From assembly GCF_004799645.1 (NCBI RefSeq), contig NZ_CP031305.1:1550001-1614000 (forward strand): DNA of 64,000 bases. The letters run 5' to 3'. Positions 14,932 through 47,184 of this stretch are shown here, in pieces. Both the position numbers and the translations under genes were made by a program. Within the stretch, counting starts at the first letter, position 1. Each line of letters opens with the position of its first letter. The notes beneath the pieces are model-generated. The model did no database searches and was not told the DNA's origin. It worked only from the letters and a program-made list of their open reading frames with translations. The DNA is from Natronorubrum bangense. Lineage in GTDB: Archaea > Halobacteriota > Halobacteria > Halobacteriales > Natrialbaceae.

Positions 14932-14936
14932 TCTAC

Positions 14937-15062
14937 CTAGGGTCCAAAAAAGGCGTTATTGTTTGCTGCGACAGTACCAACTTGCGACAGCACTAGCAGG
15001 ATGGTAAACAGCACGCCAATCATTCGTGGGTGATTCTTCAGGTATTGGGTCAGGTCCGTCAT
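14937..15062 (-). CDS. DUF7503-like 41-aa membrane microprotein
   Basis: The frame encodes MTDLTQYLKNHPRMIGVLFT, one hydrophobic helix (about residues 14-32), and a short polar end with NNNAFFGP. The NPRMIGVLFTILLVLSQ-type core matches a tiny haloarchaeal family I recall as DUF7503. It ends five bases from the convergent CHAT1 stop. The AT-rich stretch 15063-15223 upstream (for example attttaatataaca) provides possible TATA boxes. It may be a membrane partner or effector of the CHAT/HalX genes, but no function is established. Confidence 0.7.
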   Translation of the reverse strand: MTDLTQYLKNHPRMIGVLFTILLVLSQVGTVAANNNAFFGP

Positions 15063-15223
15063 GGTACATTGTAGACGTCTCGGTGCGTTGTTATAAATTT
15101 ATTTTAATATAACATATAATTAAGAAATAGGAGTATGGAGGAAATAATTTGTTCAAAAGTTTAGAAGGGCTGGTGCTCTCACGTGACCGCGCAACCGCCG
15201 AAAAACAGCGCTTGAACCTGCAT

Positions 15224-15793
15224 CTACTCATCGAGTAGCTGCCGGAGTGATTGATCGAATTCGTCACTCGAGAGTTCGTCACGAATCGCGGCCGCGCGTT
15301 TCCGTGACTCATAGTGGTTACAGATGACCGACTGATACCGATCAGCAGTGTCGACACCGGCTTGGAGTTCACTCTCGAGGAGCGCACGCTCAGTCGAGAG
15401 TCTAAAAAATTCGTCCATCGCTTCCTCATAGGCACCTTGTAAGAGCAACCGTTCGACCGTCAACTGCAGCGTCTCATCCGAGTATGGGGCGGCGAGGAGT
15501 TCGTCAGCACCACGGTTGACGGGGTCATCTTCGGGGACGTCTTCCGAGAGGACGAGAACCTGTGTGTCCGGGGTGTTCTGTTGAAACGCATCGAGGATCC
15601 CGCGAGCGTCAGGCGTCTCGAGCCCCCAGTCGAGAAGGAGGAGATCGTATTCGTCGTTGATCTGGTCGAGAATAGATCGATTGAAATTGGCGCTGTGGAC
15701 GTCTACAGCGACTCGAGACCGGTCGGTGTCCACCTCGGCCAGAGAGAGTGTAGGATGGACAACAAATAGTTGGAATGGAGAGTCCTGCAACAC
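15224..15793 (-). CDS. HalX-domain response regulator with degenerate receiver
   Basis: About 189 aa from a GTG at 15793; an ATG at 15853 is also possible. The N-terminal half is receiver-like, with phosphoacceptor candidate Asp55 in DLLLLDWGLETPDARG and LVLSEDVPEDD. The usual N-terminal acidic pair is replaced by VVHP, and the conserved Lys is replaced in LAAPYSDETL. The C-terminal ~70 residues are a HalX helical domain (YEEAMDEFFRLSTERALLE, ending LRQLLDE). No DNA-binding domain is visible. It is divergent from the second CHAT gene, sharing an AT-rich 200-bp promoter region. Confidence 0.75.
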   Translation of the reverse strand: MLQDSPFQLFVVHPTLSLAEVDTDRSRVAVDVHSANFNRSILDQINDEYDLLLLDWGLETPDARGILDAFQQNTPDTQVLVLSEDVPEDDPVNRGADELLAAPYSDETLQLTVERLLLQGAYEEAMDEFFRLSTERALLESELQAGVDTADRYQSVICNHYESRKRAAAIRDELSSDEFDQSLRQLLDE

Positions 15794-15991
15794 AGCTCGT
15801 ACTAGTATCCTCTGGTAGATACTATTAAATGTGGTCGGGAGCGGACGGAACATTACAACGCATACACATATATCGTGAAACGAGTGGACGACATTCCCAA
15901 TTGGCCATAACGTATATTTTTCTCTATACAGAAATCTCACATAAGTGTTAGCGCTGACAACCACGAATCGTTTGTCATCTTTTCTCTGTCG
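15794..15991. promoter_or_regulatory. AT-rich divergent promoter region, HalX / CHAT2
   Basis: About 200 bp between the HalX regulator start and the CHAT2 start are markedly AT-rich for this genome (tatttttctctatacaga, ctattaaatgtgg). Several TATA-like stretches face both ways. Exact boxes cannot be fixed by eye. Control of CHAT2 by this region is inferred from position. Confidence 0.4.
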
Positions 15992-17977
15992 ATGAAACCA
16001 AAATTCAAATCGACTTCAGACGGATTAGCGATTGTCGATCCAATCGAGCGCAAGCAGTACCAAATCGAGACAAACACGTCAGTCACGCCGACATCGGTTT
16101 CTGACGATTGCATACCGTACCCGATGGACACAACTGTGGAAATTTTGACTGACGGTTTCAGAGTGTTGAGTGATAATAGTATCCACATTCGAGATCCAAA
16201 TGGAATCCTTATCACCGAACTCAGGGCAGACGAAAAGGTGAGTCTTCCAAAGTCAGAATATATTCTTGATATCTCTGGCCCTTTGAAAGTGTATGTCGTC
16301 GTCGAAAGCACAGTCCATGTCCACGAAGGTGTTGGGCAAGCTGAAATATCGTTTGGAGAACTAACTCCAGCAGTGATAAGTGCGCGATCGTATCACACAT
16401 CACCGGCAGCGACGATCACAACGACCACAGAGCCAACCGATGTGATGCAAGCAGTTTCGATGTTCGGGTCCGCACTGAAAACAACAACGCCTGAGCGATC
16501 GTACCCAACACTTCGTGGCCATCCACCAGCTGTCGAGTTAGGTGCTGATGTAACGATTCCTGATGAGTTATCACGACCACAGACAGGTGTCCGGATCGAG
16601 ATTCCACCGACACTCCGCCACACGTTCGTCGTCGCACCACTTGCGTACTATCTCGCAGCAGCGGTCGTTCCGGGGTCGACGCCACGACTCGTCACGGAAG
16701 CCGGCTACTCCTATCCACTCGAGGGAGAACACGGGTTTGAACGGACAGTCAAGCAGGTGTTCAAGCAAATTTTCTTGCTCGATTGCATCGTTCGAACTGA
16801 GGGGGAGACACCACTGCCGCTGTACGAACGGCAAGCAGTCGAACCGGCTCTCGAGTTTGACATCGAAGATGTCTATGAACAACCGCTAGCCGAACAGCTC
16901 GAGACCTATCTGGCGGTTCCGTTCGAAACGATACAGGCACACCTTCCTGAATGGCAGTTTGAAGTTCATCTCAATCCACTTGCGCCAGATTCTCTTGAGT
17001 TACTGCCGTTTCTTATGAACCGTCTCTCAATAGTCAAAACAGATACTGCTGCGAGCAGATCGGCTCGAACCGCTACAAGGACGTCTGCTTCGGTCTCCCC
17101 GCTACTTCGGCAGTCTTGGGAAGATGGGCGAACTGAAATAACAGGGACAGGAACGTTGTCAGCGTTCCAAAATAATATCACTCAATCACCGCGAGACGGA
17201 CCGCTTGAGATCGAAGTCGTCTGTAACGACTCGGAGATGAGTAAAGAGCTTGTGACGGTCCATTGTGCCTATCAGAATCGGAATGATCTTCCACTTGATG
17301 TTACCGTTCATTATGATCTTACGACGGATGAACTCGAGGAGGTCCTTTCTCGAGAAAGCGACTTCGTTCATTATATTGGCCATATCGATACCGATGGGTT
17401 TCGGTGTTCAGATGGAACGATCAGTGCATCACGGATCGAAACGGTTGGCACAAAAGCGTTCATTCTGAACGCGTGCCGTTCCCATGAACAGGGACTGCAT
17501 CTCATCGAAGCAGGTGCGATCGGCGGGATCGTCACCTTCAGCGAGATAGAAAACAGCACCGCAGTCGATGCGGGACGTACAATTGCTCGTCTCTTGAACT
17601 TTGGACTACCGCTCTATGGGGCATTACACGTTCTTCAAAAGAGAGGAGATGGCGAGCAACAGTATCATATCGTCGGTGACGGGGCGCTGACGGTCGTTCA
17701 GACAAGCCAGGGATCGCCGATGGCAGGTACAATCAGTCACGGAGAGGACGGGAACGATATGATTGTAGATTCATATCTATCACCGTCCAAAGATATGGGT
17801 AGCGTATATAATATGGCCACAAAAATATCTGAATCATACCATTTAGTGTCTGGAAAAGTGAGCTTACAGTCAGAGTCAACAGCCGACTTCGTGGAACTCC
17901 TCAATACTGAGTCGTTCCCTGTGTTATTTGACGGCGAACTCCGTTGGAGTACCGACATCAAGACACATGAACTGTAG
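15992..17977 (+). CDS. CHAT-domain (caspase-like) protein 2
   Basis: A 661-aa paralog of the 12847 gene with the same architecture: conserved N-terminal region, polar linker near residues 345-370, CHAT domain and a tail. The dyad is His464 in FVHYIGHIDTDG and Cys495 in FILNACRSHEQ, again 31 residues apart. The best conserved block outside the CHAT core is SALKTTTPERSYPTLRGHPP near residue 165. Codon use is more AT-rich than CHAT1 and its neighbours, which suggests a different history. The linker and tail have diverged most. The start ATG at 15992 is the first in frame. Confidence 0.8.
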   Translation: MKPKFKSTSDGLAIVDPIERKQYQIETNTSVTPTSVSDDCIPYPMDTTVEILTDGFRVLSDNSIHIRDPNGILITELRADEKVSLPKSEYILDISGPLKVYVVVESTVHVHEGVGQAEISFGELTPAVISARSYHTSPAATITTTTEPTDVMQAVSMFGSALKTTTPERSYPTLRGHPPAVELGADVTIPDELSRPQTGVRIEIPPTLRHTFVVAPLAYYLAAAVVPGSTPRLVTEAGYSYPLEGEHGFERTVKQVFKQIFLLDCIVRTEGETPLPLYERQAVEPALEFDIEDVYEQPLAEQLETYLAVPFETIQAHLPEWQFEVHLNPLAPDSLELLPFLMNRLSIVKTDTAASRSARTATRTSASVSPLLRQSWEDGRTEITGTGTLSAFQNNITQSPRDGPLEIEVVCNDSEMSKELVTVHCAYQNRNDLPLDVTVHYDLTTDELEEVLSRESDFVHYIGHIDTDGFRCSDGTISASRIETVGTKAFILNACRSHEQGLHLIEAGAIGGIVTFSEIENSTAVDAGRTIARLLNFGLPLYGALHVLQKRGDGEQQYHIVGDGALTVVQTSQGSPMAGTISHGEDGNDMIVDSYLSPSKDMGSVYNMATKISESYHLVSGKVSLQSESTADFVELLNTESFPVLFDGELRWSTDIKTHEL

Positions 17978-18040
17978 CTCGTCGGGTGAAAGTGGAGCAC
18001 TGCCGCTCTCGAGGTAAGAAAACAAAAGGAAACCGAGAGC

Positions 18041-27853: not shown

Positions 27854-27926
27854 GCCCGGGTGGTGTAGTGGCCCATCATACAACCCTGTCACGGTTGTGA
27901 CGCGGGTTCAAATCCCGCCTCGGGCG
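27854..27926 (+). tRNA. tRNA-Asp (GTC), copy 1
   Basis: A 73-nt cloverleaf with acceptor GCCCGGG/CTCGGGC, discriminator G, anticodon stem CAACC/GGTTG around loop CTGTCAC (anticodon GTC), and T-arm GCGGGTTCAAATCCCGC. No intron and no encoded CCA. The RNA sequence is identical in all three tandem copies. Confidence 0.97.
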
Positions 27927-28074
27927 CTTTCTCAAAATCTAACTTCTCGAGCAGCTGGTCTGCTATACCGGAGTATCCACAACCGACGTTTAGGGATCTC
28001 GAGCCGGCCGAACGTATCGAACGAACCCTCACACAGATATATTAACTATAACTGACAATACCGATAACACAACC

Positions 28075-28080
28075 CTTAAG
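28075..28080 (+). promoter_or_regulatory. Box A of tRNA-Asp copy 2
   Basis: cttaag sits 37 bp before the mature 5' end of copy 2. Similarity to the upstream region of copy 3 extends further, through ctgacaataccgataacac. Confidence 0.6.
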
Positions 28081-28111
28081 AAGTTCACCGGGAAAGAAGG
28101 AGTTGCAGGAA

Positions 28112-28184
28112 GCCCGGGTGGTGTAGTGGCCCATCATACAACCCTGTCACGGTTGTGACGCGGGTTCAAATCCCGCCTCGGGCG
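28112..28184 (+). tRNA. tRNA-Asp (GTC), copy 2
   Basis: Identical in sequence to copy 1, 258 bp downstream. It is followed by the same ctttctcaaaatctaacttc stretch as copies 1 and 3. Its own upstream box makes it an independent transcription unit. Confidence 0.97.
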
Positions 28185-28330
28185 CTTTCTCAAAATCTAA
28201 CTTCTCGAGAGTCAGTCTATTGTACTGGAATATCCTCACCGATGTCCAGTAATCTCGAGCCAGCCGAAAGTATTCAAGATGATGAACATACTGCCATGTT
28301 ACTAAATCTGACAATACCGATAACACAACC

Positions 28331-28336
28331 CTTAAG
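28331..28336 (+). promoter_or_regulatory. Box A of tRNA-Asp copy 3
   Basis: cttaag sits 37 bp before the mature 5' end of copy 3, with the same conserved leader apart from small changes (aaaagaagggttgcagga). Confidence 0.6.
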
Positions 28337-28367
28337 AAGTTCACCGGGAAAAGAAGGGTTGCAGGAG

Positions 28368-28440
28368 GCCCGGGTGGTGTAGTGGCCCATCATACAACCC
28401 TGTCACGGTTGTGACGCGGGTTCAAATCCCGCCTCGGGCG
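28368..28440 (+). tRNA. tRNA-Asp (GTC), copy 3
   Basis: Identical in sequence to copies 1 and 2, 256 bp after copy 2. Last unit of the tandem array; a T-arm-like fragment follows about 70 bp later. Confidence 0.97.
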
Positions 28441-28510
28441 CTTTCTCAAAATCTAACTTCTCGAGCAGTCGCGCTATTCGAAACGCCAAACGAGGTCGCG
28501 ACATAGAACG

Positions 28511-35505: not shown

Positions 35506-36726
35506 TCACTCCCTCGTCTCCGGCGAATCCGATATCTCGACGCCTGACGGCGACTCGAGACCTGCTGTGAGTGTTTCCGGCGTTCCGAACACGTAGAGCG
35601 TATCGCCAGCTTCGATCGGCTCGTTGTCCGCCGGCAGTGATAGTACGTCGCCGTCTCGTTCGATCACGAGGACCGTTCCGGGGATCCAGCCAACGAACTC
35701 GTTCTCGAGCGGGCTATCAGCCTCGATCCGAGTCGCCGTCACCGTCTCGTCTCCGTTCTGGATCGCCGAGATCAGTGCGTGAGCATCGCTTCCCGCCTCC
35801 GGCCGGGTCGTAAGCCGGTACTGCTCGCCGGGCTCGAACGCGTCCGCGTCGTCAGCGTCGACCGCGATCGTCGTCACCGAGCCGACACACGCGCGTAACA
35901 TCCCTGTTGCCACGAGCCGACTCGACGCATCGCTGTCGGTCCAGATTTCGACCGGATCCCCGGTACTCGCCCGCGGTGAGGGATCGCCTGAGATCGCAAC
36001 GGCGACCTGAGCAGGACCCAGCGTGGGACTGATGCCAGTCCGTCGACCGCCGACCGAGAGCGCGCCAACGTTCCCGTCGTCGGCAACCACTGCATCGACG
36101 TATCCGACATCGAAGTCGGTCTCGAGTCGCCTCTCCACTCTCGACTCGAGTTCTGGAACCGACAACTGACTCGGAAGCCGGAACAGACGGCCTTCGAGGT
36201 CGCGTTTGACAGCCTCGTCGACCGCTGGATACCCTTCTGCGTCGTCGATCGACTCTGGCAACGTCACGACGGCAGAGAGCCCTGCCGCTCGGATGAGATC
36301 CGCAACTGGGCCGCTGGCGTCGACCCTTGTGATCCCATAGGTCCCACACGCGAGGTGGTCACCGAGTCGGTGGCCACCGGCAGCGACGATGGTGCCGGCG
36401 AATAGGACGCCAAGGAGATACGATCCGGTTGTGTAGTGGATCAGCGGCGAGTCGGCGAGGACGGTCCCGTGGCGCACTGCTTCGCTCGTGAGCCAGCCCG
36501 TCGGCAGTGCAAGGCCGAGGAGAACCGCTGGCCCAGTTGGCAGCTGGCGAACAGTCAGCGCCCGGTATCCGAAAGCAAGTACGAGGGCACCGATGCCTGC
36601 CAGCAACCCGTAGCTGAGCAGTCCCAGCAACGCCGTCCGTGTCCATTCGATCCTCGTCGAACCACCGAGTTCCACACCGGTTTGCAGTACTGTCTCCGTT
36701 CCGACCGCTGCGATCGTGAGCGGCAT
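35506..36726 (-). CDS. Membrane TrkA-C protein, second of a pair
   Basis: A 406-aa protein with about three to four N-terminal helices (residues 30-130) and a large cytoplasmic part ending in a TrkA-C/RCK-C domain (NEFVGWIPGTVLVIERDGDV, then IEAGDTLYVFGT). Annotated in haloarchaea as potassium transporter TrkA-like. There is no NAD-binding Rossmann motif, so it is not a classical TrkA. It starts one base after the stop of its upstream partner and is probably cotranslated. Cation transport control is inferred. Confidence 0.7.
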   Translation of the reverse strand: MPLTIAAVGTETVLQTGVELGGSTRIEWTRTALLGLLSYGLLAGIGALVLAFGYRALTVRQLPTGPAVLLGLALPTGWLTSEAVRHGTVLADSPLIHYTTGSYLLGVLFAGTIVAAGGHRLGDHLACGTYGITRVDASGPVADLIRAAGLSAVVTLPESIDDAEGYPAVDEAVKRDLEGRLFRLPSQLSVPELESRVERRLETDFDVGYVDAVVADDGNVGALSVGGRRTGISPTLGPAQVAVAISGDPSPRASTGDPVEIWTDSDASSRLVATGMLRACVGSVTTIAVDADDADAFEPGEQYRLTTRPEAGSDAHALISAIQNGDETVTATRIEADSPLENEFVGWIPGTVLVIERDGDVLSLPADNEPIEAGDTLYVFGTPETLTAGLESPSGVEISDSPETRE

Positions 36727-36727
36727 C

Positions 36728-38014
36728 TCAGTGACTCACCTCGAGAGCCGCTGGCTCTCGTTTGTCCCGTCTGGTTCCGAACACCGTCGTATCCGTGCCG
36801 AGGACGAACGCTTCTGTCCCGACCGTGAGCGCAGCTGGCTCGGGATCGAACTGCCACTCCTGTTTGTCGATCGGGTCACCGTCGCTCGCCTCGGAGCCTC
36901 GGACCGCAAACACCTCGAGATCGGTGTCTTCGGCGGTCACAGCATCGAGCGCTGCCTCGGTCAGCGTTTCTTTTCGGATCGTCGTCTCGTTCCGCTCGAG
37001 CAGTGATACTGCCTCGAACTCGTGTGTCGTCTCCCGTGGCGTGACGGCGACTCGAACACGCTCGGCGTCCAGCAGCGTCTCGGCGTCGGTCGTCGAGACG
37101 GCGACGGTTACACGGCCTGGGCCCCCGGTCGTCACGGAATCGGCTGAAACGCCATTGGTCGAGTGGGTGACCTCGCTAGCTGTGGACCGGTTGCAATCTC
37201 GAGGCTCGCTGACAGCCGCCGATGGGTGCACGCCGCCATCTGTGGGATCCGTGTCGACTGTGGCGCTGAGCACCGTCCCGGAGACCGTCCCCGTGTCGGT
37301 GATCGTGCGGACGCTGTCGCCCGGTGTCAGTCCCGTCGGAAGCAGTGCCCGAACCGAGACGGCGCGCCACCCCTCGGGAACCGCCTTCGCGATACCGTTG
37401 ACCGGCGGTGTCGCGGTGATCGTCGCTCGACCACGGCCGTCGACGGCAACGGCGACCGCCTCGAGGTCGTATCTCGTCCGGAGTCGATCTTCGAGGCGTC
37501 TCTCGAGTTCCGAGCGCGGAAGATCTGCTGGGAGCCGCCAGGCACCGTCCTCGAGTGCAGCCCGGAGCGCCGGACCGAGTGGTGGATAGGCCTCGAACTC
37601 GCGAACGCCACCGCTCGAGCGGATCGTCACCTGTCCCATCGCGTCGACGGCATCGATCGCGTCCGCTGCGAGCGGCTGTGTTCGCTCGACCGAGCCGGTG
37701 ATGAGACGCGGCGAGTCGACGGCAAGCTGGTGTCCCCAACGCGTTGTATAGAGCCCGAGAACGACCGCGAGCCCGACGCCGAGAGACAGCCCCGGCTGGA
37801 TGGTGCTAGTGCCGAGGACGCCAGCTGCGGACAAGAGACTAGCAGTGACCACCGCCGTGGCTGTCCCGCCAGCGATCGGCGGCATCGTTCTGCCGGCGAA
37901 AACGGTCCCCACAAAACTGGTGACACCGATGACTGCCGAGACAGCGGTTCCGAACAGCAACCCGGTCGACACACCAGTGAGAACGTCGATTGGGGTGACG
38001 AACAGTAGGCTCAT
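36728..38014 (-). CDS. Membrane TrkA-C protein, first of a pair
   Basis: A 428-aa protein with three N-terminal hydrophobic segments (residues ~10-110), a central region paralogous in layout to the neighbour (DGAWRLPADLPRSELERRLEDR versus EGRLFRLPSQLSVPELESRV), and a C-terminal TrkA-C-like domain ending ALTVGTEAFVLGTDTTVFGT. The two likely form a membrane complex. No channel filter motif is seen. Confidence 0.7.
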   Translation of the reverse strand: MSLLFVTPIDVLTGVSTGLLFGTAVSAVIGVTSFVGTVFAGRTMPPIAGGTATAVVTASLLSAAGVLGTSTIQPGLSLGVGLAVVLGLYTTRWGHQLAVDSPRLITGSVERTQPLAADAIDAVDAMGQVTIRSSGGVREFEAYPPLGPALRAALEDGAWRLPADLPRSELERRLEDRLRTRYDLEAVAVAVDGRGRATITATPPVNGIAKAVPEGWRAVSVRALLPTGLTPGDSVRTITDTGTVSGTVLSATVDTDPTDGGVHPSAAVSEPRDCNRSTASEVTHSTNGVSADSVTTGGPGRVTVAVSTTDAETLLDAERVRVAVTPRETTHEFEAVSLLERNETTIRKETLTEAALDAVTAEDTDLEVFAVRGSEASDGDPIDKQEWQFDPEPAALTVGTEAFVLGTDTTVFGTRRDKREPAALEVSH

Positions 38015-38028
38015 TGGGCTCAGACGGG

Positions 38029-38553
38029 CTAACTGGTTTCAGCAACCCGAATCTCGGGGTTTGGCTGTTCATCGATGTAGTTGCTGTCCGACGGCGGGAT
38101 TACGTCTATCTCCAGCGTTCCGATATCCTGGTCAGCACGAAGGCCTTGATTGTTATCGAAGACCAGCTCTGCCTCGTTACTGTCTCCGTCCGTATCCGCT
38201 TCGACGACCCCCTCGAGCTGTGCAGATCCAGCCGTTGCGATCACAGTTGCGTCCTGTACTTCGTTGCCGTTTTCGTCGATGACGGAAACCGTGACCCGTT
38301 CGGTCCCAGACGGATCGATGATTTGGCCGTTGTCGTGGATCTCTACAGTGACCTCTGTATCTCCAACATCGCCGATTCCACCGAGCATGTTCAACATGAG
38401 CGCAAGCGCCGCGACACCAACGACTAACGCGATCACGAGCCGGATCGGTAAGCCTTCGATCGCACGATCGTCTCGAGCGAACGACGATCGTGATCGAGTG
38501 TTCACCCGCTCCGATCTGTCGGAACGGTCCGAAAGCAAGGTCTTCGAGAGCAT
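38029..38553 (-). CDS. DUF7382-like single-TM secreted-domain protein, possible pilin-like
   Basis: A 174-aa protein. After an Arg/Ser/Asp-rich N-terminus comes DDRAIEGLPIRLVIALVVGV and a single hydrophobic helix (about residues 40-62), then an acidic beta-rich domain with Ig or carboxypeptidase-regulatory-like features (VTVSVIDENGNEVQDATV). The charged stretch before the helix recalls type IV pilin-like proteins, but no clear prepilin peptidase site is visible. It is divergent from the secretion-like ATPase locus, which suggests it could be its substrate. The start at 38553 is preferred. Confidence 0.6.
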   Translation of the reverse strand: MLSKTLLSDRSDRSERVNTRSRSSFARDDRAIEGLPIRLVIALVVGVAALALMLNMLGGIGDVGDTEVTVEIHDNGQIIDPSGTERVTVSVIDENGNEVQDATVIATAGSAQLEGVVEADTDGDSNEAELVFDNNQGLRADQDIGTLEIDVIPPSDSNYIDEQPNPEIRVAETS

Positions 38554-38629
38554 ACCCCTGCTTGGATTCGTCTTCTGACTTAAACGTTCGACCGAGGATT
38601 CAAAACTGAAGGGCAGACGAACCACGGTC

Positions 38630-39691
38630 GTGAGTTTCGTAATCGGACGCGGTGACGATCTCGAGGCTGGCCCCGTGGGCGCTCTGGGCACGTACCGGGC
38701 TCGAGATGGGAGCGAAGGCGCAGCCCTCCATCTCGACTTCGATGGGCCACACGCGATGTTGATCGTCGGAAAGCGTGGCTATGGGAAGTCGTATACGATG
38801 GGCGTCCTTGCAGAGGGGCTCGCTCGAGCCCACGGCGTGGCCCCGGTGATCGTCGATCCGATGGGTGTCTTCGACACCCTTGCGGAGTCGACTGCCGGTG
38901 ACGGCGTCCCTGCGAGAGTGATCGACGAGCCGACGGTAACGCCGAATTCGCTCGACCCCCGCTCGTGGTGTACACTGCTCGGACTCTCGCCGGAAAGCGG
39001 TGCAGGAAGCCTCGTCTGGCAGGCCGCACAGGCAGCGCCGACACTCGAGACGATGCAGACACACGTCGGGTCCGCCGATGCTCCGGCTGCGGACACGCGA
39101 GCGGCGCTCAATCATCTTCAACTCGCCACCGCGTGGGGCGTCTTCGACGCCGACGGCATCGACGCCGCCGACCTCGGTGGGGCCGAGGTGACGATTCTCG
39201 ACGTGTCTGGACTCGAGTCGGCACCGATGAACGCCGTCTGTCGAGGGGTCGCAGAAGCGTTGTATCGGGCACGCGTCACCGAGACGATCGACCGACTCCC
39301 ATGGCTGTTGCTCGACGAGGCCCACACGTTCTTCGACGGGATCGCCGAACCGGCGCTCCGGACGATCCTGACGCGTGGCCGCGCACCTGGTGTCAGTCTC
39401 GTTTCGGCGACACAACGTCCGAGCGCCGTTCCGCCGGTCGGCATCTCCCAGTCGGACGTCCTGATTTCGCATCGGCTAACGTCACAGGCCGACCTTGACG
39501 CGCTGCAGGCGGCCCAGCCGACGTATATGAACGTCTCGCTGTCGGATGCTGACCGCCTTCCAGAGGCGCCCGGTGAGGTCGTCGTCGTCGACGACGCCAC
39601 GGAAACGGTTCATACCGCACAGATCAGATCGCGTGACACGCCACACGGCGGTGACAGTCCACGGGCAAGTGAGGTCTCCAGCGGAGAATAA
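38630..39691 (+). CDS. HerA/FtsK-like ATP-binding protein
   Basis: A 353-aa ATPase beginning at a GTG (38630). Walker A is GKRGYGKS at residues 47-54 and Walker B is LPWLLLDEAH (Asp229, Glu230). A late SATQRPSAVP motif is typical of HerA-type enzymes. It may power export or assembly at the membrane alongside the TadA-like ATPase further on. It has no transmembrane helix. First gene of the plus-strand secretion-like cluster. Confidence 0.85.
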   Translation: MSFVIGRGDDLEAGPVGALGTYRARDGSEGAALHLDFDGPHAMLIVGKRGYGKSYTMGVLAEGLARAHGVAPVIVDPMGVFDTLAESTAGDGVPARVIDEPTVTPNSLDPRSWCTLLGLSPESGAGSLVWQAAQAAPTLETMQTHVGSADAPAADTRAALNHLQLATAWGVFDADGIDAADLGGAEVTILDVSGLESAPMNAVCRGVAEALYRARVTETIDRLPWLLLDEAHTFFDGIAEPALRTILTRGRAPGVSLVSATQRPSAVPPVGISQSDVLISHRLTSQADLDALQAAQPTYMNVSLSDADRLPEAPGEVVVVDDATETVHTAQIRSRDTPHGGDSPRASEVSSGE

Positions 39692-39745
39692 TCTCGCTCG
39701 ACGCCGTCGATCCCCGCAATCGAAAGCGCTCGATCGAGGCTGATG

Positions 39746-39753
39746 TTTAAATA
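39746..39753 (+). promoter_or_regulatory. TATA box of the coiled-coil gene
   Basis: tttaaata begins 30 bp before the ATG at 39776, which fits a leaderless transcript. It argues against the upstream in-frame ATG at 39743, which would lie before the box. Confidence 0.6.
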
Positions 39754-39775
39754 CGATGCGTCGGCCAACTGCGAT

Positions 39776-40540
39776 ATGACCGATCTCGAGCGACTCGACC
39801 AGCGACTCACTGCTGTCGAGCGTGTGGTCGTCGACGGCGATGTCGAACTCGATGGACTCGCTGATCTCGCCACGCTCACGGCAGACATCGACCGACTCCA
39901 GACCAGAGTCAAGGACTACGAGCAGCGACTCGCGGCGCTAGAGGCGACAGTCGATGCGGTCAGCGGCTTCATTGGAAACGTCGAGTCGGTCGACGAAGAC
40001 GTCGAACGGCAGGCGGCTGCGGCCGTTGCTGCTGTCGACCGTCTCGAGTACCGGATCGACGAACTCGAGCGGGCGCTCCCAACCCACCGGAGCCGCAACG
40101 ACGATGTTGCCACCGGCGAGACGGCAAGAACGGAGTCTCCTCTCTCGAGCGGCGCCAGTATCGACGACCAGATCGACGAACCGCCCGCCACAGCAGCGAC
40201 CAGCGAGAGCAACACTGATTCGACAGCTTTCACGGGGGAGACCGGAGCCAGTGACACCCAGTTTGGAGAGCCCGCTGACGTGGAGTCGACCGCCGAAACA
40301 CTGCTCGAGCCGCCAGATGAGCGCACAGCAGACGGAGACGCTGGCGGTCAGTCAGCCGGCGGGCTGGCCGTCCAGCAGACGGTCGACCGTCGGTCATCCA
40401 GTTCGGGTGACGAGGCAGGCAACACACCCAGTTCGGGCGATACACCTGGCTCGAGCGATGACGACGCCTCACGTGGGACTGTGACCGATGGCGACGACAC
40501 GAACACACTGATCGCCTCGCTTCGCGCCAAGCTCCTGTGA
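39776..40540 (+). CDS. DUF7310-like coiled-coil protein
   Basis: A 254-aa acidic protein. Residues 1-100 are heptad-rich coiled coil (LERLDQRLTAVERVV, DRLQTRVKDYEQRLAALEATV), followed by a long disordered Ser/Asp/Thr-rich segment and a short conserved end NTLIASLRAKLL. I recall such proteins in haloarchaeal pilus-like loci as DUF7310. The C-terminal peptide may dock on a partner. Its stop overlaps the next start. Confidence 0.7.
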   Translation: MTDLERLDQRLTAVERVVVDGDVELDGLADLATLTADIDRLQTRVKDYEQRLAALEATVDAVSGFIGNVESVDEDVERQAAAAVAAVDRLEYRIDELERALPTHRSRNDDVATGETARTESPLSSGASIDDQIDEPPATAATSESNTDSTAFTGETGASDTQFGEPADVESTAETLLEPPDERTADGDAGGQSAGGLAVQQTVDRRSSSSGDEAGNTPSSGDTPGSSDDDASRGTVTDGDDTNTLIASLRAKLL

Positions 40541-41001
40541 TCCGATACGTCCTCGCAGTGGTGTTGCTGATCGCACTCATCGCGCTCTCGATGCCAGCTA
40601 TTGACAGTGGTGCAACGATGAACACTGAGCGACAGGTCGATGCGAGCCTCGCTGCGATCGATGAGAAAGCGACCTCGCTGATCGAAACCGAGGAAGTAAC
40701 ACCCGATGGGCACCCGAACCCCCAGCGCGTCGTCGAACTCTCGCTGCCGCGGAGTACGCTGACGACCGCAGGGGTCGACCACGTCGAACTGGTTCCCCAC
40801 GAGAGTGGACAGTACACCCACGCCCGGTACGTCCTCGAGGACGGGACGACTCGAGAAACCATCATCAGCGAGCAGATCGTCTGGGACGATCCGTCGGAGA
40901 CCGACACGACCGAACTGGGCGGTGCCGGTGAGCAGCGCCTCGCACTCGTTCTTTTGCCAGACGAAACTGGAGAACCAAGACTCGTCGCTCGCCATGTCTG
41001 A
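40537..41001 (+). CDS. DUF7311-like membrane-anchored protein
   Basis: A 154-aa protein starting at GTG 40537, with an N-terminal hydrophobic helix (residues 4-20) and an extracytoplasmic domain (VVELSLPRSTLTTAGVDHVE). The layout resembles a pilin-like or minor-pseudopilin protein. It overlaps the coiled-coil gene by four bases and the ATPase gene by eight, so it is tightly coupled to the machine. Function unknown. Confidence 0.7.
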   Translation: MIRYVLAVVLLIALIALSMPAIDSGATMNTERQVDASLAAIDEKATSLIETEEVTPDGHPNPQRVVELSLPRSTLTTAGVDHVELVPHESGQYTHARYVLEDGTTRETIISEQIVWDDPSETDTTELGGAGEQRLALVLLPDETGEPRLVARHV

Positions 41002-42958
41002 GTTTAAACCGGAACACGCAGCCAGTATCGACATGCCACAGGTTGGGATCGCAAGCACCCTCGGATCGGTCCTCGACGACCTTGGGCTCGGCTGGATGCT
41101 CGATGACGGTGAGCCGGATGGGAACTGTCCGTGCAGCGTTTCAATCGAGGACGAACTGGTAGTCGTCGATGCAAGCGACTGTGACGGCGACCTCACGACG
41201 TCTACCGCGTGTCGACACGCTGTCGTCGACGCGCTTGCCGACCGCGAGGTAGACGGCATCCGCACTCGATCGAACGGGGTCGAACGGCGATACGATGATC
41301 AGGCTGTCGAGTTGCTCAGTGCTGCTGGCCGGTTCGTCGAACTACTGGGCGACCGGGACGAGCGACTAGCTGACGCCGCCGCACGAAACCCACTCGAGGT
41401 CGCTGCCGAGCTAGCGACACAGATCGGACCAGTCGCGGATATCGCCGTCGAGTCTGGATTTACGGCCGCTGCAGACGGGATCGACAGCTACGAATCGGCG
41501 TTGACGTCGACCGTCGGGCTCACGATCGGACACTACTTTCTGGATCAGCAACTCGACGACGGCGCACGCCTCGAGGATGTCCGGACACTCGAGACGGGCA
41601 GCGAGGCGCGGATCTACACGCGGCCGGATGGGGTGCCGCTGTACGTCCTCGACGTGGTTGACAGCACGCTCTCGAGCACGGAGCGGAAACAGCTCATCGA
41701 GGGGTATGAAGCCATCGCGGAGGGCGACGTCGAGGGCGACCGGGCGGCCTCACGCGCGATCGAGCGCGCAACCGACGCGCCAGCGGAGCCGTTGTTGACG
41801 ACGGTGCTTTCGAAGCACACGAGCGGGTACGGGATCCTCGAGGACCTGTTTGCAGACGAGCGAGTGACGGACGTGTACGTGACTGCCCCAGTCACACAGA
41901 ACCCGATTCGGCTCGTCGCCGATGGGGCGTCGATGACGACAAACGTCTACCTGACGGCGGCTGGTGCACGCGCGCTCGCGTCTCGAGTCCGTCGAACCAG
42001 CGGGCGAGCGTTCTCGCGGGCAAACCCAACCGTTGACGCGATGGCCACGCTCGAGAACGGGGCCGGCGTCCGCGTCGCCGGCGTCACCGAGCCGGTCTCG
42101 GATGGGGTCGCGTTTGCGTTCCGAGAGGTGGCCGACGACCGGTTTACGCTCCCTGCTCTCGTCGCCAACGGAACCATGCCAGCCGAGGTCGCGGCGTTTC
42201 TCTCGGTGGCCATCGAGCGTAACGCGGCCGCGCTGATCGCCGGGACTCGAGGGTCGGGGAAGACGACGCTGCTTGGCACCTTGCTGTACGAACTGACGCC
42301 GGGTACCCGAACGGTTCTGATCGAGGACACGCCAGAGCTCCCGGTCGCCCAGCTTCAGTCAGTCGACCGGGACGTTCAGGCGCTCCGAACCGGGACCGGC
42401 GACGGGCCGGAGATTTCGGCGGACGAAGCGCTCAAGACAGCACTTCGACTCGGAGATGGAGCCCTCGTTGTCGGCGAAATTCGGGGTGAAGAAGCCCGTG
42501 TCCTCTACGAGGCGATGCGGGTCGGTGCGAACGCGAACGCCGTGCTCGGGACGATCCACGGCGACGGGGCGGATGACGTCTATGAGCGTGTTGTCTCGGA
42601 TCTCGACGTCGAACCCTCGTCGTTTGGTGCAACGGACCTCGTCGTGACTGTCGAGGCCTATCGAACGCCGAATGGCCGCAAGCGGCGGGTTGCCAGGATC
42701 GAGGAGGTCATCACCAGTGGCGATGATCTCTGGTTCGAATCGCTGTACGAACTGGATGGCGACCAGGCTGCCCCCACGGGGCGGATCGACCGCGGTGAGA
42801 GCGTGTGTGTCGACCGACTCACCCGACCGTCCGAGGCGTATGCGTCGGTTCGACAGGCGATCACGACGCGGACGGAGCTGCTCTCGAGGCTCGCTGCTGA
42901 CGGCCGGACGAGTCCACGCGAAGTCGCCGCGGTGTACGCTGATCGGGGGCGTGAGTGA
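40994..42958 (+). CDS. TadA/PilB-type secretion ATPase
   Basis: A 654-aa type II/IV secretion ATPase that would energise pilus assembly or export from the cytoplasmic face. Walker A is GTRGSGKTT at residues 417-425. LIEDTPELPV, LVVGEIRGEEA (Walker B region) and the His box GTIHGDG follow. The N-terminal ~60 residues contain a Cys-rich GNCPCSV...CDGD...CRHAV patch that may bind a metal, and then an ATPase N2-like domain. The start ATG at 40994 was chosen for coupling to DUF7311. Confidence 0.93.
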   Translation: MSEFKPEHAASIDMPQVGIASTLGSVLDDLGLGWMLDDGEPDGNCPCSVSIEDELVVVDASDCDGDLTTSTACRHAVVDALADREVDGIRTRSNGVERRYDDQAVELLSAAGRFVELLGDRDERLADAAARNPLEVAAELATQIGPVADIAVESGFTAAADGIDSYESALTSTVGLTIGHYFLDQQLDDGARLEDVRTLETGSEARIYTRPDGVPLYVLDVVDSTLSSTERKQLIEGYEAIAEGDVEGDRAASRAIERATDAPAEPLLTTVLSKHTSGYGILEDLFADERVTDVYVTAPVTQNPIRLVADGASMTTNVYLTAAGARALASRVRRTSGRAFSRANPTVDAMATLENGAGVRVAGVTEPVSDGVAFAFREVADDRFTLPALVANGTMPAEVAAFLSVAIERNAAALIAGTRGSGKTTLLGTLLYELTPGTRTVLIEDTPELPVAQLQSVDRDVQALRTGTGDGPEISADEALKTALRLGDGALVVGEIRGEEARVLYEAMRVGANANAVLGTIHGDGADDVYERVVSDLDVEPSSFGATDLVVTVEAYRTPNGRKRRVARIEEVITSGDDLWFESLYELDGDQAAPTGRIDRGESVCVDRLTRPSEAYASVRQAITTRTELLSRLAADGRTSPREVAAVYADRGRE

Positions 42959-42965
42959 TCGACCC

Positions 42966-44681
42966 ATGGCGCTGTCGACGACAGTGATTCGGAAGCTGGC
43001 TGCGCTGTATCCGTACGACGTCAGCGGGAGCGACGCTCTCACTGAGTCGCTCTCGTTTATCAACTCGCCACACGACGAGAAGACGGTTGTTCGTGCGAGC
43101 TATGGGGCCGGCATCGTCGGCGCACTGCTCCCGCTCCCGCTGTTTTTGACCTCGGCACCGCTTCCCTTCGTCCTGTTTTTCGTGGTCGTGACACCCACTG
43201 CAGCGATTTACACAGTCCACTCACTCCCACATTTACAGGCGGCGTTTCAACGAACCGAAGCACTCGGCGACACGCCGAATCTCATCGGCCGTGCAGTGTT
43301 ACGGATGCAGGTACAGCCAGCGCTTGAGAGCGCGGTTCGATTCGCTGCCGAGACTGGCAGCGGGCCGCTCTCGGCCAGTCTCAACGGCCACATCGATCGG
43401 TCGATGGGGACCGCGAACACGGGACTGCTGTCGTTCGCCGAGGAGTGGGCCGAGTGGTTCCCCGCGTTGCGACGCTCTTCACACCTGCTCGCGACTGCAC
43501 AGGACGCGCCAGAGGGCGAACGGGCGCGAACGCTCGACCGGGCACTTTCGGCCGTGCTCAACGGCACCAGAACTCAGATGGCGGAGTTTACCGCCGCCAT
43601 TCGAGCGCCGACGACCGGGCTGTTCGCTTTCGGGATCATGATCCCACTGGCGCTGATCGCGCTCGTCCCCGCCGTGCCGATGGTCGGCTTCTCGGTCAAC
43701 ATCTGGATCGTCGTCTTGCTGTACAACATCGTGCTTCCCGCATGTCTCATCGCCGCGAGCTTCTGGTTGCTCGTCCGTCGTCCGGTTGCGTTCCCGCCAC
43801 CGAACGTCAGTCACGACCATCCCGACGTGCCGAACCGCCTCTGGATTCGCGGGCTGTGGGGAGTGTTCGCAGGCATCTGTGGGTACGCGATCACGGCGAC
43901 AGTCGGCCCCGCCCATCTGGCGTCGGTCATCGGTCTCGGCCTCGGCCTGGGCGCTGGCTTGCTTGCGATCTTCAGACCGATCCTCGAGGTGCGAAACTAC
44001 GTTCGAGACGTCGAAGCCCACCTCACCGACGCACTCTACATCGTCGGTCGACAGGTTGCTGAAGGCGAATCCGTCGAGTCGGCGATCGAGCTCGCGGCCC
44101 AGCGGGTGCCTGCTGAAACGGGCGAGGTTTTCGAGCACGCTGCCGGTGTCCAGCGACGACTTCACGTGGGCGTCGACGCAGCGTTTCTCGGCGAGTACGG
44201 TGCGCTCAGAGCCGTCCCGAGTTCGCGTGTCCGCGGGACAGCCGCGTTGCTTGCGATCGCTGCCGACGAGGGGAAGCCAGCGGGTCGTGCAATCGTCTCG
44301 ATGGCCGACCACCTGGAGGAGCTCGACGACGTCGAAGCCAAGACAAAACGGAGTCTGGAACAGGTGACCGGCACGCTCGACAACACGGCAGCGTACTTCG
44401 GACCGCTGGTAGCGGGTGCGACGGTCGCGATGGCTGCCATGATGTCGAGTGAAGAGCTGGTTGGGGCGGCAGACGTCGATGCTGCTGCGTTTCCAGCCGA
44501 ATCGCTCGCCATCGTCGTCGGCATCTATCTCGTCACACTGTGTTTTATTCTGATTCCACTCTCGATCGCCCTCCGGTACGGTCTGGATCGTGCCCTCGTC
44601 GGCTATCATATCGGGCGTGCGCTCGTCTCTTCGATGGTCCTGTACGCCGTTTCTGTCGCGATCATCGAGATGATACTCTGA
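42966..44681 (+). CDS. TadC/PilC-type membrane platform protein
   Basis: A 571-aa polytopic protein with two type II secretion F-type regions separated by membrane helices, the partner of the ATPase just upstream. The cytoplasmic segments have RAVLRMQVQPALESAVRFAAE and YIVGRQVAEGESVESAIELAA, a repeated F-domain signature. An in-frame GTG at 42951 overlapping the ATPase stop is an alternative start. It forms the inner platform of a pilus or secretion system. Confidence 0.9.
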   Translation: MALSTTVIRKLAALYPYDVSGSDALTESLSFINSPHDEKTVVRASYGAGIVGALLPLPLFLTSAPLPFVLFFVVVTPTAAIYTVHSLPHLQAAFQRTEALGDTPNLIGRAVLRMQVQPALESAVRFAAETGSGPLSASLNGHIDRSMGTANTGLLSFAEEWAEWFPALRRSSHLLATAQDAPEGERARTLDRALSAVLNGTRTQMAEFTAAIRAPTTGLFAFGIMIPLALIALVPAVPMVGFSVNIWIVVLLYNIVLPACLIAASFWLLVRRPVAFPPPNVSHDHPDVPNRLWIRGLWGVFAGICGYAITATVGPAHLASVIGLGLGLGAGLLAIFRPILEVRNYVRDVEAHLTDALYIVGRQVAEGESVESAIELAAQRVPAETGEVFEHAAGVQRRLHVGVDAAFLGEYGALRAVPSSRVRGTAALLAIAADEGKPAGRAIVSMADHLEELDDVEAKTKRSLEQVTGTLDNTAAYFGPLVAGATVAMAAMMSSEELVGAADVDAAAFPAESLAIVVGIYLVTLCFILIPLSIALRYGLDRALVGYHIGRALVSSMVLYAVSVAIIEMIL

Positions 44682-44778
44682 ACTGATCGGGTCTCGAGGA
44701 GGGCCGTTTGTCGAGTGGGACCGGACTGACCGTCCCAGCGGTGTCCAGGTTCAAAAAGGAAGCCGCACCAATCCCGAT

Positions 44779-46071
44779 ATGATCGCGATTGCTGGTGCGA
44801 AAGGTGGCTGTGGAAAGACGGTAACGACGCTCGGACTCACAGAGGCATTCGCTCGAGCTGGGATCGCCGCGCTCGCAGTCGATGCCGATCGGCAGCTGCC
44901 GAATCTGCACGTCACTGGCGGTGTCGACCGCACGCCAACGCTTGCAGCGCTTGCCGCCGAGACCGGTATCCGATCGGTCGCACAGGGAAGTCCGCGAACG
45001 TCGACTGCCGGCATTATTCCTGCTCCGGAGCCGTCGGCGAACGTCGATCTCGAGTCCGTGCTCGGTCGGCTCGAGGCGAGTACGATACAGACGATCGTCG
45101 ACTGTCCGTCCGGTGCGGGGCCGGACGTTGTCGAGCCACTCGCTGCAGCCAGTGGAGTGATCGTCGTCACGACGGACAGCGATCGAAGTCTCACTGCTGC
45201 CGAGATGACAGTCGAGATGGCTCGTCGCCTCGGTGCTCGGGTGCTGGGAACGGTACTAAACAGATGTGAGACGGTCCCGCCCCAAGTCGACTCATGGGTC
45301 GACGTGCCGGTGCTGGGCGTGATACCCCAGGCGGAGTCACCGTTGATAGACGACGAGACGACGACTGCCTACGATGAACTCGTCGAGACGTTACGAACAC
45401 GAAACGCAACGGCACAGACACCACCAGCGTACGATGACGACCTGTTACCGACGGGGATCGATGCTCTCGACCGTCGGCTGGGCGGCGGGCTCGCACCCGG
45501 CTCCGTCGCTGCACTGATCGCCGAGCCAGCGAGTCAGTCAGAACACTTGCTCTATGAAGCGACTGCACCCCGCGGGACGCTGTATCTCACGACCGAGCGC
45601 TCGGCAGTAAACGTTCAGCGAGCGATCGAAACCACGTCGACCGAAACCGGTACTCCGACGGTCCGCCACGTCAGCGGCGAACACCGCCTCGAGGAGGCGA
45701 TGGAGAATATCAGCAGACTGCCGGCGGAGGCGACGCTCATCATCGATCCGATCGACGTCCTCGAGCGACACGACCGGCACGCGTACGTCTCGTTCCTGAA
45801 CGATCTCAAAGACTGGATGGTCGAGACCGAAAGCATTGCCCTGTTGCACGGTCTAAACGGATCCAATCGACCCGATAACCGAACAGCGACGATCCACGCG
45901 ACCGACGCTGTCTTCGATGTACAGACGAGTAACCCGGGGATCGGAGCGGGCGTCGGACACTCCCTGTCGATCCCGAAGTTCCGTCCCGAGCGGTCGTTCA
46001 CGGAGACGATCGAGCTCAGTTTCGACGGCGTGGGGGCAGCGGTCATCGAGACCGACCAGGACGGAGCGTGA
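44779..46071 (+). CDS. MinD-like ATPase fused to KaiC-like domain without P-loop (DUF7125-like)
   Basis: A 430-aa fusion. Residues 1-210 are a ParA/MinD ATPase with the deviant Walker A GAKGGCGKT at 6-14 and VDADRQLPN. Residues ~220-430 resemble a RecA/KaiC fold starting LPTGIDALDRRLGGGLAPGS. There the P-loop position reads AEPASQSEHLL, so the second domain cannot bind ATP in the usual way. Likely a positioning or regulatory factor for the pilus-like machine; the gene follows the TadC-like gene by 97 bp. Confidence 0.8.
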   Translation: MIAIAGAKGGCGKTVTTLGLTEAFARAGIAALAVDADRQLPNLHVTGGVDRTPTLAALAAETGIRSVAQGSPRTSTAGIIPAPEPSANVDLESVLGRLEASTIQTIVDCPSGAGPDVVEPLAAASGVIVVTTDSDRSLTAAEMTVEMARRLGARVLGTVLNRCETVPPQVDSWVDVPVLGVIPQAESPLIDDETTTAYDELVETLRTRNATAQTPPAYDDDLLPTGIDALDRRLGGGLAPGSVAALIAEPASQSEHLLYEATAPRGTLYLTTERSAVNVQRAIETTSTETGTPTVRHVSGEHRLEEAMENISRLPAEATLIIDPIDVLERHDRHAYVSFLNDLKDWMVETESIALLHGLNGSNRPDNRTATIHATDAVFDVQTSNPGIGAGVGHSLSIPKFRPERSFTETIELSFDGVGAAVIETDQDGA

Positions 46072-46114
46072 ACGCACGTGGTCGGTGGAACGACTGCACG
46101 AGACGACGAGGGAC

Positions 46115-46822
46115 TCAGCGAACGCCGATGTGACCGGAGCGATTCCCTTCGCAGCGTTCGACTGAACGGGCAACTGACTCGAACGCGTCGCTCACACCAC
46201 AGTCAGGGGACACATCTCTGACTGGACGCCACTCCTCCATCGCGTTGTCGACGGCCGGCCGCTCCGCGACCATTGTCGTTGGTGCGCCGAGTTTCCGTTC
46301 CACGCGAGCCGCAAGCTGCTCGTGTTCATCGGCTTCGTCTGCTGTCGTCCGATTGAGGACGACCGCGGCGATCGGCGTCTCGAGTTCGAGCGCGACCGCC
46401 CGAGTCCGTAGCGCATCGACGAGTGCCGATTCGGTCGGCGTGGTGACCAGTACTGCGACGTGGGCGCTCTCGAGTTGGCGGCCCACGTCGCGTGCCAGCC
46501 CTGCCGGACAGTCGATAACGACGCGACCGAACTCCCGCTCGAGGCGATCGACCACGCGGGGGAGTTCCGTCAGTGCCGACGCGCGGGCACCAGCGAGCGT
46601 TCGACCGCACGGCAGTATCCGAACTGTGCCGAACGACTCCACGGCGTCGAGTGGGGCTGCCTGCCCCGCGAGAACGTCATGCAGGTCGGCTCCATGTCCA
46701 CGGGGGAGATCCGCAGTCGAAAGATCGGCGTCGACGACGACGGCGTCGAGCTCTCGGCCGAGATTCAGCGAGACAGTCGACTTGCCGACGCCGCCTTTAC
46801 CACCAGCGACAGCGACGATCAT
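46115..46822 (-). CDS. minD: MinD/ParA-family ATPase
   Basis: A 235-aa ATPase with deviant Walker A GGKGGVGKS at residues 7-15, switch VVDADLSTADL and VVIDCPAGLA. It has no obvious C-terminal amphipathic membrane-targeting helix. It converges on the fused MinD/KaiC gene and overlaps the small DUF7857-like gene start region by four bases, so the two minus-strand genes form an operon. Spatial positioning of the machinery is plausible. Confidence 0.85.
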   Translation of the reverse strand: MIVAVAGGKGGVGKSTVSLNLGRELDAVVVDADLSTADLPRGHGADLHDVLAGQAAPLDAVESFGTVRILPCGRTLAGARASALTELPRVVDRLEREFGRVVIDCPAGLARDVGRQLESAHVAVLVTTPTESALVDALRTRAVALELETPIAAVVLNRTTADEADEHEQLAARVERKLGAPTTMVAERPAVDNAMEEWRPVRDVSPDCGVSDAFESVARSVERCEGNRSGHIGVR

Positions 46823-47184
46823 GGGTTCTGCGTGAGTACGTCAGCTGTCGGTGCCCACCTATCGAGTTCGGCGAGCACCGCTTCGGACGTCGTGGTCCGC
46901 TCTGTGGCGATCCGGGAGCTCTCAAGAACCTCGAGTGGCGGCTCCGTCGGCGTGGCTGGGCTTGCGAACCCAACCCCACGGCGTCGTCCTGGTTCGACAG
47001 CGCCCTCCCAGACGTCGCCACGCCACTCGGGGACGACCATCCCGTCTCGTCGTGGCGGCCACGTCGGCCCGTCGAGTTGGCTCTCGAGACGGACTTGCTG
47101 TGGAGTCGTCTGCGTATTCGTGATGATCGCCGTCACAAACGTCACTCCCTCGCGTCGATCCGTTTCCCAGTCGACCTCGACCAT
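46819..47184 (-). CDS. DUF7857-like protein
   Basis: A 121-aa soluble protein starting MVEVDWETDRREGVTFVTAI, with a beta-rich core (VTAIITNTQTTPQQVRLES) that looks Ig-like. It overlaps the downstream minD-like gene by four bases. I recall such proteins beside haloarchaeal MinD genes as DUF7857. Function unknown. The ATG at 47184 is chosen because the frame further upstream is not conserved in composition. Confidence 0.65.
   Translation of the reverse strand: MVEVDWETDRREGVTFVTAIITNTQTTPQQVRLESQLDGPTWPPRRDGMVVPEWRGDVWEGAVEPGRRRGVGFASPATPTEPPLEVLESSRIATERTTTSEAVLAELDRWAPTADVLTQNP

Follow-up and report, generated by a model that had tools for sequence, protein, structure and literature searches.

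The window, a 64,000-nucleotide stretch of Natronorubrum bangense DNA, carries at 38029-47184 the genes of a putative type IV filament machine. On the left, on the reverse strand, is the gene of the 174-residue pilin-like protein DUF7382 (38029-38553, profile match 2e-10), with a candidate signal/anchor of the form RA^IEGLPIRLVIALVVGVAALALM and a weak Ig-like (Big_1) domain. Diverging from it on the forward strand, a GTG-initiated gene encodes a 353-residue HerA-like ATPase (38630-39691; HerA central domain DUF87, 4e-8), followed by the coiled-coil protein DUF7310 (39776-40540, profile 3e-27), DUF7311 with its N-terminal membrane anchor (40537-41001, profile 6e-49), a TadA/PilB2-type ATPase (40994-42958; T2SSE 2e-19, TIGR03819 TadA 5e-41), a TadC/PilC2-type platform protein (42951-44681; Pfam T2SSF marginal at 0.34), and a fusion of MinD (KGGCGKT) with DUF7125 (44779-46071; archaeal MinD TIGR01969). 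Back on the reverse strand, the gene of the 121-residue protein DUF7857 (46819-47184, profile 2e-24) leads a two-gene unit with a second MinD ATPase of 235 residues (46115-46822; TIGR01969). The E-values of TIGR01969 for the two MinD-type proteins are 1e-19 and 4e-36. A type II GAPDH gene comes after DUF7857 at the right edge of the locus. To the left of DUF7382, and also on the reverse strand, a membrane protein (36728-38014) is paired with a TrkA-C-domain membrane protein (35506-36726); the pair is a frequent neighbour in the Natrialbaceae type. All the genes named in the initial annotation are confirmed with profile support: the TadA-type ATPase and the TadC platform, the flanking HerA-like, coiled-coil and membrane-anchored proteins, and the pilin-like gene diverging on the left, which is DUF7382. 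The two MinD/ParA genes it listed are indeed both MinD-type, with the amendment that one is a fusion of MinD to the KaiC-like DUF7125 and the other is coupled to DUF7857. The DUF7857 gene, which overlaps that MinD gene and was absent from the list, belongs to the set.

The genes from DUF7310 through DUF7311 and TadA to TadC overlap their neighbours by 4 to 8 bases, which is what a co-translated operon would show. The reading frame of DUF7310 is open from an ATG at 39743 too, and the gene probably starts at 39776, since a frame beginning at 39743 would run through the TATA-like element TTTAAATA found at -30 of DUF7310. Other TATA-like elements lie at -31 of the DUF7382 gene (TTTAAG) and at -31 of the DUF7857 gene (TTTATA), and TTCAAA occurs at a similar distance (about 30 bases) upstream of the HerA-like gene and of the MinD-DUF7125 fusion. 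Read against the promoter consensus, the locus suggests five predicted transcription units.

By sequence and comparative genomics, the locus is the motor half of a type IV filament system of haloarchaea whose core is already known, PilB2/PilC2 (pil-2). What had been described as a pilus/secretion-like machine is in its motor and platform of type IV (TadA/PilB and TadC/PilC). We base the assignment on the coiled-coil protein, PilB, PilC, the pilin-like genes, the CetZ neighbour found elsewhere, and the four-cysteine N-terminus of the ATPase. The PilB-type gene is directly followed by the PilC/TadC gene, which it overlaps, and TadA and TadC are each found in 60 of the 67 related loci. The cysteine motif of TadA/PilB2 (C43xC45...C61...C71) is kept in 59-60 of 61 homologues, and a scan of the genome contigs with the TadA protein returns only 7 close relatives. 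The DUF7310-DUF7311-TadA-TadC core of other genera continues, in most relatives, into DUF7283, DUF7285, DUF7284 and the approximately 1000-residue DUF7286, and a divergent CetZ gene often lies ahead of it. Class-III-like signals can be read by eye in DUF7284 (RA^ISTVMDV...), DUF7285 (RA^QTEPFAAI...) and DUF7286 (RA^RIPFAMI...). A cysteine-rich ATPase N-terminus, a coiled-coil protein and an ftsZ-like neighbour are the features given for subclade 4F (Makarova 2016, PMC4858521), and we infer that DUF7310 is arCOG07564; PilB2 is assigned to subclade 4C, not 4F, in PMC6491452. A cetZ2-linked pilB2/C2 regulon has been described by Brown and Duggin 2023 (PMC9856176), who state the biological role of cetZ-adjacent type IV systems as unknown. 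In the pil-2 system of Halobacterium, the pilB2 transcript is 8.5-fold higher in surface-attached cells (PMC4292770).

The locus shares with the described PilB2/PilC2 regulon (PMC4292770, PMC9856176; 4F-like in PMC4858521) the coiled-coil gene, the PilB cysteine domain, PilC and the pilin-like genes. It differs from the form next to cetZ2 in Haloferacales/Halobacteriales in that the pilin half is elsewhere and CetZ is not adjacent, and it adds HerA, DUF7382, DUF7857-MinD and the MinD-DUF7125 fusion. Directly downstream of TadC/PilC there are no class III pilin-like genes, the MinD-DUF7125 fusion being there instead. The DUF7283-7285-7284-7286 genes occur some 0.78 Mb from the window, at a second site of the same chromosome (G000:C1:2372385-2378002), so in this genome the operon is split, not missing. 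The prepilin peptidase, which the initial annotation rightly reported as missing from the window, has one PF01478 match in the genome, at G000:C1:1296769. Both substrates and peptidase are thus present in the genome, away from the locus. The substrates had been given as unknown, which no longer holds now that the cognate pilin-like genes are located; the purpose we can still only infer. The window has no CetZ gene between its positions 33 and 52 kb, while in other genera it is adjacent; its absence here does not decide against the assignment, as PMC9856176 describes Natrialbales too as lacking it and as usually carrying pilB2 without a regulon around it. In two other loci (L057 and L059), pilin-like genes come after DUF7311 and TadA/TadC are missing: the operon has been split more than once in haloarchaea. 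Two PilB2 core copies are present in G058 (L065/L066) and in G161 (L085/L086), one with HerA attached and the other beside CetZ or without HerA, and in these genomes a single HerA gene is detected.

The HerA-like ATPase has a Walker A (GKRGYGKS) and a DEAH-type Walker B that are invariant in 19 sequences, and a C-terminal tail RxRxTPHGG. The Walker A sits at residues 47-54 of the 353, and the protein is too short for an N-terminal HAS-barrel region. Its nearest PDB relatives, by sequence and fold, are HerA translocases and then TrwB. AlphaFold models built from 4-5 sequences have pLDDT values of 47 (DUF7125) and 55 and are usable as fold hints only. A gene of this kind might instead mark an island for anti-phage defence or DNA repair, based on HerA and independent of the pilus, and PADLOC HerA models do match the protein (1e-16, and 8e-15 for mad8). 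These matches, however, cover the long defence HerA models only in part, and the NCBIfam antiphage HerA score is 31.6 against a cut-off of 800. The nine proteins scanned include no SIR2, DUF4297 or nuclease effector, the profiled neighbours of the HerA-like gene include no NurA (or NurA-like), Mre11 or Rad50 genes, and the partners are all pilus-type genes. We regard such an island as extremely improbable.

In 27 of 31 further loci with an intact HerA, the DUF7382 gene lies next to it in divergent orientation, and across those loci the start of the protein is near-invariant: ERAIEGLPIRLVIALVVGVA. In loci of other types than that of Natrialbaceae, the DUF7382-HerA pair mostly occupies one of a few conserved neighbourhoods (L111-L123, about 18 kb each), the commonest of which is near genes for GAPDH, peptidase M29, a PCMT-like protein and the rpo genes. 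Because these GAPDH and M29 genes also border the locus in the window, the core has apparently moved in beside a pre-existing HerA site. One might then take the HerA and MinD genes for bystanders that share a chromosomal site, close to GAPDH, PCMT and rpo genes, and have no functional link to the pilus, as would suit both the conserved neighbourhood of the pilin-HerA pair in many genera and a TrkA-like pair that is not specific to the system. Position, however, cannot account for the joint loss of genes that lie far apart, and HerA is absent or broken where the core has been lost. The bystander explanation is largely refuted and we hold it to be very improbable.

We use DUF7311 as the marker of the core; it is present in 147 of 194 Halobacteria genomes, with DUF7310 within about 1 kb of it in nearly all 147. 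HerA was tested on 113 genomes, 68 with DUF7311 and 45 without. An intact HerA-like gene is found in 67/68 of the former and 0/45 of the latter. The single core-positive exception is G036, in which no HerA is detectable; on the core-negative side, G045 and G184 have only degraded copies (two relics) and G043 only a weak distant match. HerA follows the core in 11/11 within-genus contrasts (g2, g3, g5, g7, g11, g18, g21, g27, g39, g43 and g46). Linkage is not the cause of this co-inheritance, since HerA is retained even far from the core in many genomes, as in G112, with DUF7311 at C11:185614 and HerA at C11:573171. DUF7857 is present in 40/40 core-positive and 3/36 core-negative genomes, the three being the two HerA relic genomes (G045 and G184) and one weak match. 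In Natrialbaceae, the MinD-DUF7125 fusion is in 25/25 core-positive and 0/22 core-negative genomes. The Fisher p-values for HerA, DUF7857 and the fusion (6e-31, 2e-18 and 7e-14) treat genomes as independent and overstate the association, genomes being related; the 11 within-genus contrasts give a safer measure. As controls, standalone DUF7125 occurs in 187/194 genomes regardless of core status, and relatives of the TrkA-like neighbours occur in 12/13 genomes with the system and 10/20 without. We rejected the TrkA-like membrane pair as a core component for this lack of specificity; it is probably accessory.

Two genomes record the loss of the core. In G067, DUF7310 is joined to a DUF7286 remnant, an arrangement such as a deletion of the core would leave, and there is no HerA. 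In G045, DUF7286-7284-7285 are retained beside CetZ with no core genes there, and HerA is a fragment. HerA does not outlast the core in either genome. The initial annotation had proposed checking the conservation of the set across haloarchaea and had named independent scattering of the genes as the contrary outcome. We find the genes physically dispersed, yet retained and lost jointly, and the joint presence and loss of HerA, DUF7857 and the fusion with the core rules out independent scattering. Genome-wide co-inheritance identifies the HerA-like, coiled-coil, membrane, pilin-like and MinD genes as true partners, and we consider it highly likely that HerA, DUF7382 and DUF7857-MinD are members of the PilB2 system. 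HerA could also act in a pathway that is only co-selected with the pilus. In a search confined to the open literature without subscription papers or supplements, nothing connects a HerA-like protein with PilB2, and no paper turned up under DUF7286. As components of the PilB2 system, HerA-DUF7382, DUF7857-MinD and the MinD-KaiC fusion appear to be new: the PilB2/PilC2 papers cited above name none of them as a part, with the possibility that the supplements of PMC4858521 already list them.

DUF7857 adjoins a MinD gene, with MinD following, in all 18 further loci examined. DUF7125 is without a Walker A: the sequence is AEPASQSEHLL in the fusion, and AEPASQSE in fused and standalone copies alike. 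Its best Foldseek matches are KaiC, on the model with pLDDT 47, the Pfam KaiC E-value is 0.003, and the ArlH profile reaches an E-value of 0.18 only. In several families (L131-L134), including the Haloferax-like genus g35, MinD and DUF7125 are encoded separately but side by side, and no more than one stop codon or a few bases lie between the two. Because the two genes nearly abut in these families, the likeliest origin of the fusion is a copy of such a pair, recruited to the pilus; the adjacency is also a hint that the two proteins interact. We rejected MinD2 as the identity of the window MinDs. In Haloferax MinD2 (HVO_0595), the P-loop Lys16 and the Walker B Asp117 are 101 residues apart (PMC11621097), against spacings of 90 and 95 in the window MinDs, and 90 in a Haloferax-like g35 genome; the relatives of the window MinDs likewise lack the MinD2 spacing. 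By elimination only, the window proteins would be MinD1/MinD3.

As a whole, the locus is best explained, with fair probability, as a type IV filament machine that has two motors and is under the control of MinD ATPases. PilB2 acting on PilC2 would assemble a trans-membrane filament or pseudopilus out of class III pilin-like proteins (DUF7382, DUF7284-7286), and HerA would be a second ring ATPase, cytosolic, moving cargo through or along the machine. Placing or gating the machine may fall to the MinD ATPases, in the manner of CpaE/TadZ and FleN in bacteria, and the KaiC-like domain may contact the PilB2 ring, as ArlH contacts ArlI. The bacterial Tad pilus with CpaE/TadZ is alike in its TadA and TadC homologues and in a MinD-like localiser with an extra domain, which is receiver-like in CpaE and KaiC-like here; the bacterial Tad pilus is not known to have a HerA. 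In the archaellum, the KaiC-like ArlH acts on ArlI, a FlaI/TadA-type ATPase; DUF7125 differs in lacking a Walker A and in being part of a MinD fusion.

A serious competitor to the two-motor machine, and a quite possible one, is an ordinary PilB2 adhesion pilus in which the HerA-like protein would serve in protein coupling/secretion or as a filament retraction motor, with no DNA involved. VirD4 and EssC of the HerA-FtsK family handle proteins as well, archaea are without PilT (PMC4858521), pilB2 is induced in surface-attached Halobacterium (8.5-fold, PMC4292770), and DUF7382 has an Ig-like domain, as in an adhesin tip. Against this, the closest relatives of the HerA-like protein are DNA-acting HerA ATPases, with the TrwB coupling protein next.

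For the two-motor machine, DNA (for uptake or exchange) is our leading guess for the cargo of HerA, because the characterised near relatives of HerA all move or process DNA. By this analogy it is a tentative guess, with protein or filament handling about as likely. Slightly more doubtful is the full proposal that the PilB2 system is a haloarchaeal DNA uptake/exchange machine, in which a TadA-driven filament would capture DNA, the HerA-like ring would pull it in and the MinDs would place the machine. DNA comes first here because HerA is nearest to DNA-translocating HerA ATPases and then TrwB, and because Ted loci carry HerA and MinD/ParA genes. If true, the system would import DNA by an apparatus other than those of ComEC-based competence and Ced/Ted.

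The Ted system of Thermoproteales (PMC9905601) is alike in that its surface filament locus encodes both HerA-like and MinD/ParA ATPases, and this likeness could mean that the locus is itself a relative of the T4SS-like Ted/Ced DNA import machines. Ted, however, is made of T4SS parts (TedA channel, TedB VirB4-like ATPase, TedC pilin), whereas here the parts are those of a TadA/TadC type IV filament, with TadC as platform and TadA/PilB as motor, and the profiled window proteins include no full-length VirB4/CedB/TedB ATPase, VirB6/CedA channel or VirB2-like pilin. The Ups pili and Ced import of Sulfolobales (PMC11868833) similarly place a type IV pilus ATPase and platform alongside HerA-clade ATPases (CedB, CedD), but these have a VirB4-like domain at the N-terminus and, in most cases, a membrane helix, whereas the HerA-like protein here is a short soluble core. 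We judge direct kinship with Ted/Ced very unlikely.

The near-perfect co-inheritance names missing parts of the PilB2 system in any haloarchaeon. The DUF7310, DUF7311, DUF7286 and DUF7857 profiles all match in Haloferax volcanii, and function is directly testable by gene deletion, in that species included. An obligate second motor of HerA type would make this pilus unusual among type IV filaments, and such a system would also point to a role for haloarchaeal MinD paralogues so far without known function. Elsewhere in the window, three tandem tRNA-Asp genes with the same anticodon lie in a lower-GC stretch (53%) at 27854-28441, and the GC content drops to 50-51% at 14001-18000, against about 61% around it, possibly an inserted element.
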